From IMG/VR virus record IMGVR_UViG_3300048918_000109, positions 1 to 23,147 of that record: DNA of 23,147 nt; one strand, written 5' to 3'. The DNA is from a virus. A program made the translations under genes and the position numbers. The notes below the pieces were generated by a model, which saw nothing but the letters and a program-made list of their open reading frames with translations, had not been told where the DNA came from and did no database searches. Of this stretch, positions 3,202 through 6,832 are shown one piece after another (the stretch's first letter is position 1; each line of letters opens with the position of its first letter).

Positions 3202-3419
3202 CCCACATAGCATGCTTCTGCGCTGGCGCTATCGTCGCCCTGATATTCGCCCTGTGGATGATAACGAGGCGCAAGCCGCCCAGCATCACCATGCACGCTC
3301 GCAAGGCGGTAGACGTGCCGCACACGGAATACCGTAGGCAGTGGAGAGATGCGCCGGAGCGGCGGGAGGAAGGAGTGCGGTACGAATTCATGAACATGAC
3401 TGGGCTGGAGGATAAGTGA
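3198..3419 (+). CDS. Small membrane-anchored protein (73 aa)
   Basis: The ATG at 3198 overlaps the previous stop and follows GGGAGG. Residues 3-22 (HIACFCAGAIVALIFALWMI) form one transmembrane helix, followed by a basic cytoplasm-compatible stretch (TRRKPP) and a polar C-terminal tail of about 45 residues. The topology is that of a single-span N-terminally anchored protein. No known domain is recognised. The end carries the GGAGG used by the next gene. It could be an Rz/spanin-like part by shape only; no partner is seen. Confidence 0.65.
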   Translation: MTHIACFCAGAIVALIFALWMITRRKPPSITMHARKAVDVPHTEYRRQWRDAPERREEGVRYEFMNMTGLEDK

Positions 3420-3829
3420 AAGTAAGCGAACTGAACGGAAGATTGCTGGATGCATGGGTGGCGCGTGCTGAGGGCCACAACGTCGCAACAATCAAGCAAG
3501 GCGATACAGTCGTCGGCTATCAACTGTACTACTACAGCGGAGACACGCCGCCGCTGCCAGAGTACTCGACGGATTGGGCCGATGGTGGACCGATTCTAGA
3601 AAAGGCGGCTATCGGTTGGCGAGATCGCGGACGCACTTCGAATGTCGGAGTGCACAAAGGCCTTTCATCGGTCGAAGGTCAACCGTGGGAAGCATGGTTC
3701 TGTGATGGCGGCGATGAAGGCGGTAATGGCTTTCTTGATCGCGTTCAGGTTGGCGAGACTCTGCTGATCGCAGCTATGCGCGCGTTCGTCGCGAGTCGGT
3801 TTGGCGATGAAGTGCCGGGCGAAGTGTAA
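3416..3829 (+). CDS. DUF2591-like phage protein
   Basis: The GTG at 3416 overlaps the preceding stop and is preceded by GGAGG at 7 nt. The 137-residue product begins with MKVSELNGRLLDAWVARAEG and contains a central PEYSTDWADGGPILEKAAI, a pattern typical of the DUF2591 family of phage proteins. The C-terminal part (QVGETLLIAAMRAFVASRFG) is a helix also typical of that family. The molecular role of DUF2591 is not established. This is the last gene of the coupled chain; the next 60 bases hold regulatory-looking sequence. Confidence 0.65.
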   Translation: MKVSELNGRLLDAWVARAEGHNVATIKQGDTVVGYQLYYYSGDTPPLPEYSTDWADGGPILEKAAIGWRDRGRTSNVGVHKGLSSVEGQPWEAWFCDGGDEGGNGFLDRVQVGETLLIAAMRAFVASRFGDEVPGEV

Positions 3830-3834
3830 AAACC

Positions 3835-3878
3835 GTTGTCCTCTCGCGCATATACAGGATTACGACGCAGAGGACAAC
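3835..3878. repeat. 10-bp perfect inverted repeat, possible operator
   Basis: GTTGTCCTCT at 3835-3844 and its exact reverse complement AGAGGACAAC at 3869-3878 are separated by 24 bp, a centre-to-centre distance of 34 bp or roughly three helical turns. The repeat lies in the first true intergenic gap after the early chain, and the right arm contains the -35 of the putative promoter at 3871. No U-run follows, so it is not a standard terminator. It could bind a dimeric repressor or form an RNA hairpin. An inverted repeat of this length can occur by chance in 23 kb, so the location is the main support. Confidence 0.45.
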
Positions 3879-3899
3879 TAAAAGATTTTCATGTACAAT
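3871..3899 (+). promoter_or_regulatory. Putative sigma70 promoter for the Q-like gene
   Basis: AGGACA (3871-3876) and TACAAT (3894-3899) are separated by 17 bp. The -10 matches 5 of 6 consensus bases and the -35 matches 4 of 6. The -35 sits inside the right arm of the inverted repeat, so a protein bound there would block transcription. Expected initiation near 3906 leaves a leader of about 45 nt before the ATG at 3954. The assignment is from sequence only. Confidence 0.4.
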
Positions 3900-3953
3900 A
3901 TACGTGGTTTAAAAATGATGCTTCCACCATATTTTGTGTCTGCGGGGTTCGTG

Positions 3954-4460
3954 ATGATTCGAGAGAAGATCGTTAGTGCCATGCAATCTAAGAATCTCGC
4001 TTGGCATGCGGAGTTCGAAAGAGCAATTGACACACTCACTGCGGTGGGCATGTCGGACGCGCTTGGAAGCGCCCTATTCCGCCTCAAGTATTGCAATGAC
4101 AGGGGCGCGTATCAGAGCGCCTTGGCGCTTCTTGCAAAAGAAGGTGCGACTCGTCTACGGGTAATGCCCGGATACGCCAGGAAGCTCGCCAAGGTGGCGA
4201 TTAAGGAGTGGGCTCTCGACGCCGATCCGCATTGCCATGGATCTGGGGTATTCACCAAGGCAAACGGCGTAGAGGTGGAATGTCCAAAATGCGGCGGCAC
4301 TGGGATGCGCAAATGGGAAGATCACGAACGCGCATCCGCCTCGGGGATTCCTGTAGAGGCATGGCCCAAGCACCAACGTAACTTCCAAAAGATCGGTGAG
4401 TGCTTGTCTAGAGCGACGGCTGATATGGCCGGGAAAGTCAACCGATTGCTCGCGGACTGA
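3954..4460 (+). CDS. Putative antitermination protein, Q-like (zinc-finger)
   Basis: The frame opens at 3891, but that ATG lies inside the putative promoter; the ATG at 3954, with GGGG upstream, gives a 168-residue protein starting MIREKIVSAMQSKNLAWHAE. The N-terminal 90 residues are helical. Residues 93-116 hold a DnaJ-like metal-binding pattern, HCHGSG followed after a short loop by CPKCGGTG (C94, C110, C113, with H93 or H95 as a possible fourth ligand), and then a basic helical tail. Several families of lambdoid Q antiterminators share this layout. Q proteins load on RNA polymerase at the late promoter and make it ignore terminators. The position just after the nin-like nuclease and before a promoter-leader-terminator unit supports this. 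The alternative is an unrelated zinc-finger DNA-binding protein. Confidence 0.6.
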   Translation: MIREKIVSAMQSKNLAWHAEFERAIDTLTAVGMSDALGSALFRLKYCNDRGAYQSALALLAKEGATRLRVMPGYARKLAKVAIKEWALDADPHCHGSGVFTKANGVEVECPKCGGTGMRKWEDHERASASGIPVEAWPKHQRNFQKIGECLSRATADMAGKVNRLLAD

Positions 4461-4463
4461 CCC

Positions 4464-5072
4464 ATGGCGAAGGAAATTCTATATCGGTGTGCCATGTGCC
4501 AGCATATGTTCGTGGCAGAAAGCTTCAAGCCTCGAGTTTCCGCATGGGAGAAGGGAAGAAGCGATTGCTGCCGCGATTGTGATATTGAGTTCGAGATCTA
4601 TGAGCGCAGCATTCGTTTCCCCATTGAGGCGAAGGCGGAATCTGATAAATGGTGGGCCGAGAATGCGGAAGCGGTAGAGGCATGGAAGGCGGAGTACAGC
4701 CTTGAGCGCATGCTTGAGAAGATGCGCGAACTCGGCAGGGAGCGCCAAGCGGCAATTATCAGGGCGACGCCGCCTTGGGCTAATCAACGCAAGATTGCCG
4801 AGTTTTATGCCGAGGCGGAACGGCTGACCCGTCTTACTGGCAAGCCGCACCATGTCGACCACATCGTTCCACTGCTCGGGCCAAGAGCGAAGATTGGACC
4901 ATTTAAGGGTGAGCGTCTGGTGTACGGGTTACATTGCGAGGCGAACCTGAGGGTGATTCCCGGAGATGAGAATTGCTCGAAGTCGAACAGGTACTGGCCG
5001 GACATGGTGGAAAACAACGGTTATACGCCTCGAAAAATCAGTAGTTGTAAACCAGAAAGATCTGTTGTATAG
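4464..5072 (+). CDS. HNH endonuclease
   Basis: The 202-residue protein starts 3 nt after the Q-like gene. The N-terminus has a small zinc-binding module (C9, C12, C35/C36, C39). After a helical linker with TPPWANQRKI, the HNH core is clear: HHVDHIVPL at 129-137 (H133 as the expected general base), GLHCEANLRVI around 155-165 with N161, and ENCSKSN at 169-175. Such enzymes cut DNA with a beta-beta-alpha-metal site. In phages they act in packaging with terminase or as free-standing homing endonucleases. Here it sits between the Q-like gene and the putative late promoter, 5 kb from terminase, so the role is open. Its stop codon (TAG) lies within the -10 of the next promoter. Confidence 0.85.
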   Translation: MAKEILYRCAMCQHMFVAESFKPRVSAWEKGRSDCCRDCDIEFEIYERSIRFPIEAKAESDKWWAENAEAVEAWKAEYSLERMLEKMRELGRERQAAIIRATPPWANQRKIAEFYAEAERLTRLTGKPHHVDHIVPLLGPRAKIGPFKGERLVYGLHCEANLRVIPGDENCSKSNRYWPDMVENNGYTPRKISSCKPERSVV

Positions 5073-5073
5073 T
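5045..5073 (+). promoter_or_regulatory. Putative late promoter (pR'-like)
   Basis: TTGTAA (5045-5050) and TATAGT (5068-5073) are separated by 17 bp, matching 4 of 6 and 5 of 6 consensus bases. The promoter overlaps the end of the HNH gene. Initiation near 5080 would produce a leader that ends at the intrinsic terminator at 5215-5240 unless antiterminated. This is the arrangement expected for a Q-dependent late promoter downstream of Q. It is a sequence match only. Confidence 0.45.
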
Positions 5074-5079
5074 CCGTTT

Positions 5080-5240
5080 GCCACAATTACATAACCGCTT
5101 GCAGGCCCCGGACATCAATGCGCGGTAGTTGCCGCGTACATGCTGGATAAGCCGACCGGTTGACATATAAGGCGAAATCCCCTCAGGGGATAGTCGTCTT
5201 CAAAATTTCCCGATAAGCCACCCTAACCCGGTGGCTTTTT
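5080..5240 (+). ncRNA. Putative terminated late leader RNA (6S-leader-like)
   Basis: No open frame of note occupies this 160-nt stretch between the putative late promoter and the terminator. It contains two compact hairpins: CGCGG/CCGCG at 5121-5136 with a 6-nt loop, and ATCCCC/GGGGAT at 5177-5191 with a 3-nt loop. The terminator stem follows. By analogy with the lambda pR' leader (about 194 nt), this RNA would accumulate when antitermination is off. The TTGACA at 5160 has no matching -10 and is not taken as a promoter. Confidence 0.4.
5215..5240 (+). terminator. Intrinsic terminator (tR'-like)
   Basis: AAGCCACC (5215-5222) pairs perfectly with GGTGGCTT (5230-5237) across a 7-nt loop, with TTTTT ending at 5240. 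It lies 17 nt upstream of the ATG at 5258, so it must be read through for any downstream late gene to be expressed from the 5045 promoter. Confidence 0.8.
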
Positions 5241-6756: not shown

Positions 6757-6832
6757 TGACCGTAACGCACAACGGTGTGCGGCCGGACTGTTAATCCGTG
6801 TGAGGCAGGTTCGATCCCTGCATGGTCAGCCA
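6757..6832 (+). tRNA. tRNA-Asn (anticodon GTT)
   Basis: A full cloverleaf of 73 nt plus encoded CCA can be drawn. The acceptor TGACCGT pairs with ATGGTCA (one G-U). The D-stem is CGCA/TGCG. The anticodon arm has loop CTGTTAA with GTT at the anticodon position and four paired bases plus a terminal C-U mismatch. The variable loop is 5 nt, and the T-arm is GCAGG-TTCGATC-CCTGC. Discriminator base G fits tRNA-Asn. A terminator follows 10 nt later. The gene lies within the co-directional late region, so it is probably processed from the late transcript. Confidence 0.88.

Follow-up and report, generated by a model that had tools for sequence, protein, structure and literature searches.

A probable lambda-Q-type late-gene switch in Burkholderia-type phages whose short terminated RNA is probably itself under selection

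Organization of the locus

The DNA analyzed here, a 23,147-base virus record from a phage of the Burkholderia kind (hereafter the window), carries in order a gene for a 168-amino-acid protein that we call Q, a gene for an HNH endonuclease, a promoter, a leader and a terminator (Table 1). These coordinates agree with those of a preliminary description of the same DNA, which had picked out a compact set of late-control parts, each of which we located where that description had placed it. Judging from its Pfam match, the ninX-like gene immediately 5' of Q is nin-region context, and TerL, portal and head-like genes, recognized by reading the open reading frames, lie 3' of the switch on the same strand. 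The arrangement recurs: 28 loci, counting the window and one or two near-duplicates, share the order Q, sigma-70-type promoter, leader of 113–164 nt and terminator. The relatives of Q were drawn from IMG/VR, Paraburkholderia phenoliruptrix and other Burkholderiaceae genomes.

Table 1. Features of the switch and its surroundings, in window positions.
Feature	Position	Strand	Basis
ninX-like gene	3416–3829	+	Pfam PF10765, E 1.7e-19, exceeds its cut-off
Candidate Q promoter, AGGACA-17-TACAAT	3871–3899	+	Pattern scan; -10 of relatives
Q, 168 aa, compact antiterminator of predicted lambda-Q class	3954–4460	+	AF2 model, fold search, profile, PHROG 127/6060
Zinc-finger stretch, residues 91–113	4224–4292	+	34-member alignment
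HNH endonuclease (endonuclease VII-like), slot gene	4464–5072	+	PHROG 26577, E 7.7e-21; PHROG 1035, E 7.6e-7
Predicted late promoter pR': -35 TTGTAA (5045–5050), 17 bp, -10 TATAGT (5068–5073)	5045–5073	+	Scan; 28 loci
Spacer, candidate Q-binding element	5051–5067	+	Spacer comparison; position by analogy with the lambda/21 QBE (PMC6606751)
Leader RNA, untranslated	5080–5214	+	Fold z -3.06; conservation; substitutions avoid stems
Candidate -10-like sigma pause element, CACAAT	5082–5087	+	4/6 to TATAAT
Intrinsic terminator tR'	5215–5240	+	Perfect 8-bp stem, 7-nt loop, T run

The slot between Q and the late promoter varies in content. An HNH gene fills it in the window and in some ten relatives, L032 has a phosphatase gene there and L160 an integrase gene, other small genes occupy it elsewhere, and it is empty in seven loci (L042, L046, L047, L130, L131, L133 and L134). 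Because these seven lack any gene at this position and others hold different ones, the HNH gene is best read as an insertion between Q and its promoter, as the preliminary description had proposed, and the sequence comparison supports interchangeable contents. The stretch between Q and its promoter is thus a cargo slot in these phages.

Reading of translations identified tyrosine-integrase-like genes directly after Q in L151 (6511–7680) and, in L160 (6446–7552), in the slot ahead of the late promoter, where an integrase is unusual. In the late region of the window, positions 6758–6828 (+ strand) are tRNA-like by Rfam (30.6 bits, barely over the cut-off), the sole Rfam match in the window, and direct reading finds a CCA close behind; ARAGORN found no tRNA.

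A compact protein with the fold of lambda Q

Structural prediction of the 168-amino-acid protein gave an AF2 model with a pLDDT of 80, for which Foldseek returned lambda Q at ranks 1–4 (7ubn_Q, E 5e-4). VIA-align likewise placed lambda Q at ranks 1–2, led by 7ubn_Q, which is lambda Q in a loading complex (Z 11.6, rmsd 3.5, 145 aligned residues), with a second lambda Q chain, 7ubm_Q, at Z 11.2. AlpA came next (Z 8.9 and 7.8), and the first unrelated chain, which followed further lambda Q entries, scored 5.4, with all unrelated folds at 5.4 or less. The AlpA paper (PMC9371919) remarks on the likeness in conformation of lambda Q, 82Q and AlpA, lambda Q having an inserted zinc finger. The preliminary description had suggested comparing the predicted structure with lambda, phage 21 and 82 Q: lambda Q gave the best match. 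Phage 21 Q was absent from both the Foldseek and the VIA-align lists, an absence that carries no weight by itself; on present evidence the protein does not look like the phage-21 type.

Sequence profiles point the same way. A 34-member family profile searched against the whole PDB matched lambda Q weakly (E 0.064) and collinearly, residues 22–130 aligning with 31–169, well past the zinc motif, and two more lambda Q constructs were also among the PDB matches. Of the 34 members, 28 match PHROG 127 ("anti-termination protein Q-like"), with a best E of 3.7e-8. Searched alone, the window protein matches Q families weakly (PHROG 6060, 2e-4; PHROG 127, 5e-4) and PF03589 under its cut-off (E 0.015), and Pfam, NCBIfam and phmmer gave weak zinc-motif matches only. 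At a threshold of E 1e-5, named phages gave no match at either the DNA or the protein level, and no close named phage record was found for the compact Q subfamily; the best tblastn match among named phages is MW202713, annotated as an antitermination protein, at E 2e-9 to the relative L138. The short zinc motif by itself also matches DnaJ and anti-TRAP; we rejected both readings, since lambda Q is matched by the fold and by the N-terminal region of the protein.

From the fold and the collinear profile we therefore conclude that the protein is, by predicted fold and more weakly by sequence, a lambda-Q-class antiterminator; antitermination activity would follow from this class and from the gene layout. 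The preliminary description had left the family of this Q-like protein uncertain, and had made its case depend on similarity to some Q family by sequence or fold. This condition does not count against it, as lambda Q leads the fold ranks and PHROG 127 matches most of the family, which can now be placed in the lambda-Q class.

The zinc-finger-like stretch of the protein reads CxGxG...CxxCxGxG. Paired motifs of the CxxCxGxG...CxxCxGxG type occur in all members of the family except the window clade (the window, L001 and L002), which keeps three of the four cysteines. The 34-member alignment shows C94, C110 and C113 retained in the window protein, whereas the first zinc cysteine, C91 (4224–4226), is replaced by D in the window clade, with H93 nearby, and is present in every member outside it. 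The Q frame runs about 70 codons further upstream in L151 (5791–6507) and L160 (5791–6504), with a cysteine-rich stretch (CLGC...YVC...RCKKF) that is possibly a fused N-terminal domain, and L131, L133 and L134 have a similar stretch upstream of Q.

Predicted promoters of Q and of the late genes

A separate promoter seems to serve Q, and we propose for it the candidate at 3871–3899: most relatives carry a TAnAAT/TACAAT-like -10 hexamer 5' of Q. Beside this conserved -10, and with a poor -35, a box, AGGACTAC or GTAGTCCT, recurs in relatives; it resembles an operator at which an activator or a repressor could control Q. In the window the box is represented by a 10-bp inverted repeat (3835–3844 and 3869–3878; GTTGTCCTCT/AGAGGACAAC), whose right arm overlaps the candidate promoter.

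Only five hexamer pairs on the + strand of the 23 kb reach a score of at least 9/12. The predicted late promoter pR' is one of them, and the stop codon of the HNH gene (5070–5072) falls within its -10. Counts from the pattern scan are near chance, both for promoters (3 found, 1.3 ± 1.1 expected) and for terminators (2 found, 2.3 expected), and the promoter and terminator are credible beyond chance because the arrangement recurs in 28 loci and the leader is conserved. Across these loci the hexamers are mostly spaced 16–17 bp apart, with TTGTAA, TTGACA or TTGCAC at -35 and TATACT, TATAGT, TACAAT and similar sequences at -10; the promoters of L036, L138 and L139 were assigned by hand. Transcription would start at about 5080, 7 nt past the -10.

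Known Q proteins rely on a -10-like element immediately past the start and on a spacer site to which they bind (PMC6606751). As a candidate for the former, CACAAT lies at about +3 to +8 and retains A2 and T6; the same element is present in L001 and L002, and its chance occurrence over the three allowed offsets is about 2.4%. In group I the pause-like element is TACTGT, present at +2 to +7 in most members; no match in the other groups is convincing, the element being weak or absent in groups II and III. The pR' spacer opens with ACC, like those of many relatives, and no repeat common to all pR' spacers was found in the relatives compared.

A leader better conserved than the rest of the locus

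None of the window's open reading frames between 5074 and 5257 is a credible gene. The leader, about 161 nt from the putative start, has a fold z of -3.06 against shuffled sequences and is predicted to form a first domain at 5092–5162 with an inner hairpin at 5119–5138, and a second hairpin at 5169–5200, followed by an unpaired AU-rich stretch containing AAAATTTCC. Two folded domains thus precede the terminator, in keeping with the preliminary account of a gene-free leader with two hairpins and a perfect terminator. We rejected a leader peptide: the only ATG frame noticed in the leader, about ten codons at 5118, lacks an evident Shine-Dalgarno sequence, and 1–2-nt indels break it in L001 and L002.

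Comparison of the three window-clade sequences showed that conservation within the locus is highest in the leader. It is 94% identical to that of L001 and 92% to that of L002, as against 83% and 79% for the DNA of Q, 72% and 76% for the HNH gene, and 45–58% for third codon positions of Q and HNH within the clade; the next gene past the terminator is 63% identical to that of L001 (L002 ends there). tR' is 100% identical in L001 and L002, and an equivalent terminator stands behind the other leaders. Even with the terminator left out, all three pairs retain 93–94% leader identity while both flanking genes diverge.

The changes that do occur avoid the predicted stems. They fall in 4 of 76 paired and 11 of 59 unpaired columns (p 0.015), and the same tendency holds with either of the other two members as reference (p 0.0001 and 0.006), all on structures predicted from single sequences. 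The window-clade pair count is uninformative, with one two-sided change only. Since it is better conserved than the neighboring genes, the leader is likely to be functional, and these alignments suggest that the untranslated RNA probably has a job of its own. The preliminary description underrated the leader, regarding it as a gene-free and passive spacer: conservation and stem avoidance indicate a selected RNA.

Leaders in other groups

Leader conservation extends beyond the window clade. In all of 35 close pairs, a biased choice in that they were picked by leader identity above 0.75, the leader is more alike than the third positions of Q, with means of 0.87 and 0.60. The leaders of L004 and L138–L140 are 90–93% identical and their Q proteins just 57%, a likeness that may include recombination. 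Substitutions avoid predicted stems in group I (p 0.001 and 0.0002) and do not in groups II and III by the same test. Compensatory pairs exceed those of shuffled alignments by covariation score in group I (3/500) and group III (0/500), in samples of nine and five sequences and with shuffles that ignore relatedness, and they also lie far beyond those of slid structures. No covariation is demonstrable in group II, whose sequences are too uniform.

Between groups the leader sequences are wholly different despite similar Q proteins, and a MAFFT alignment over the groups is poor. Most leader groups start their closing stem at +2 to +4, the window clade at +13. An inner hairpin loop (G/C)AAACA(A/G)A, closed by GC pairs, recurs in the otherwise unlike leaders of groups II and III, L003 and L045. 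The leaders of L040 (4308–4457) and L042 (6629–6741) both carry CGCCGGAAACGGCACTAAGTTTTACACAGCGATG, which was found in none of the other groups.

A scan with a 3' leader motif, blind to Q, gave 15 matches with a terminator in 80 contigs, 13 of them with a promoter; L128 and L129 have the motif without such a promoter. The newcomers L055 and L091 turned out to carry compact Q, and L066 is the same contig as L140. Two RNA models match 3 of 398 Burkholderiaceae genomes, each with compact Q just upstream, and these loci or copies of them are also in the models' training sets. When covariance models R1 and R2 (groups I and II) were run on 387 kb, the leaders of other groups were the next-best matches, at modest E-values (L145/L147, 1.4e-5; L003, 7.5e-5; L045, 0.0025; L047, 0.03; others, 0.7–5), and nearly all of these weak cross-group matches fall on leaders. 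Neither model recovers the window's own leader, and R1 does not find the leader in lambda; we therefore do not claim a single RNA family spanning all groups. Searched against Rfam at a relaxed threshold, the leaders of the window, L004, L008, L131 and L133 gave no match that approached a gathering score. A partial coverage of the literature revealed no account of such leaders, a weak sign of novelty.

Discussion

We consider it likely that a late-gene switch of the lambda-Q type operates at this locus and that selection acts on the short RNA released at its terminator. Computation places in these phages a lambda-Q fold, a fixed gene order, the promoter–leader–terminator arrangement of 28 loci and selection on the leader; the start site, the pause, Q binding and antitermination are steps that we infer. 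In this scheme, sigma-70 RNA polymerase would initiate constantly at pR', at about 5080, and pause just past the start. Without Q it would stop at 5215–5240 and release an RNA of about 160 nt. Q, once made, would bind promoter DNA, load onto the paused polymerase and narrow its RNA exit channel, so that transcription would pass tR' and the terminators beyond it and reach the downstream genes for terminase, portal and head proteins. The proposal that the phage follows the logic of lambdoid Q, pR' and tR' thus holds for the protein class and the circuit layout.

The zinc protein might instead be a promoter activator or another DNA-binding regulator with a lambda-Q-like fold, given that a helix-turn-helix and zinc fold do not by themselves prove antitermination. 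Yet its target promoter has a good -35 and -10 in most relatives and always has a terminator behind it, a layout that needs an antiterminator, and we hold this alternative to be very improbable. Leader conservation could also reflect recombination without any RNA function, with the leader serving as a shared linker at module exchange that gene conversion keeps alike. The leaders of L004 and L138–L140 suggest swapping of this kind, and the adjoining slot takes up different genes. Against this stand the three window-clade pairs that keep their leader while both flanking genes differ, the avoidance of stems by substitutions (p 0.0001–0.015) and the compensatory changes in groups I and III, and we judge recombination as the whole explanation to be improbable.

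If the RNA is selected, it could act in cis, its stems keeping Q or host factors on the polymerase or tuning pausing or terminator strength. The strict linkage of the leader to the compact Q family would fit, as would a closing stem that most leader types start at +2 to +4, near the expected pause site, and the put RNA of HK022 (PMC9378689) is a precedent for RNA that acts on polymerase. Known Q proteins, however, are described as needing DNA elements at the promoter only (PMC6606751). Leader sequences are also unlike between groups though Q is alike, and the unpaired, AU-rich stretch that precedes the terminator is more suggestive of a small RNA. Such stretches are a trait of Hfq-type sRNAs. 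On balance we find action in cis rather unlikely.

For the function of the selected RNA we tentatively propose, giving it a little less than an even chance, that it is a stable small RNA with its own job, made during prophage silence, by analogy with StxS. With the same reserve, the leaders may form a new family of structured phage RNAs, produced continuously in lysogens and acting on host or prophage genes, with a proposed architecture of a closing stem near the 5' end, an inner branch, one or more further hairpins, an unpaired AU stretch and tR'. If this holds, the Q switch's "waste product" would be a conserved regulator that evolves more slowly than the silent sites of Q. An old loose end, whether the short late-promoter RNA does anything, becomes a testable question, for which 28 leaders from several clades, with constrained positions and compensatory changes, provide a comparative set.

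The system is best understood beside its known counterparts. It resembles lambda in the fold class of Q, with a zinc finger inserted in the C-terminal helix-turn-helix region, in the nin-type genes before Q, in the succession of promoter, untranslated leader, intrinsic terminator and late genes, and in a leader that opens with a 5' stem, as the 6S leader of lambda does when folded. It differs from lambda in that Q has 168 rather than 207 residues and seems to have its own promoter, an exchangeable gene sits between Q and pR', the leaders measure 113–164 nt rather than about 193 and are unrelated in sequence (R1 was blank in lambda), and a -10-like pause element is not evident in all groups. 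Phage 21 Q follows the same logic of a promoter-embedded binding site, an early pause and terminator read-through (PMC6606751), but a direct-repeat QBE of the 21 type was not noticed at these loci. AlpA of Pseudomonas aeruginosa, the second-best fold, is an antiterminator loaded at a promoter with a terminator nearby (PMC7969949, PMC9371919); unlike the protein described here, it is without a zinc finger and governs cell-lysis genes of a bacterial locus. StxS of Shiga-toxin phages is a stable RNA that runs from late promoter to terminator in lysogens when Q is absent (PMC7873438), and in the phages described here the RNA between these elements is under selection; the constraint in our leaders extends over nearly the full length and several stems. 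The switch is a new subfamily member of the known lambda-Q class, extending that class to a compact subfamily in Burkholderia-type phages, with a constrained multi-stem leader and a cargo slot as its variant features.
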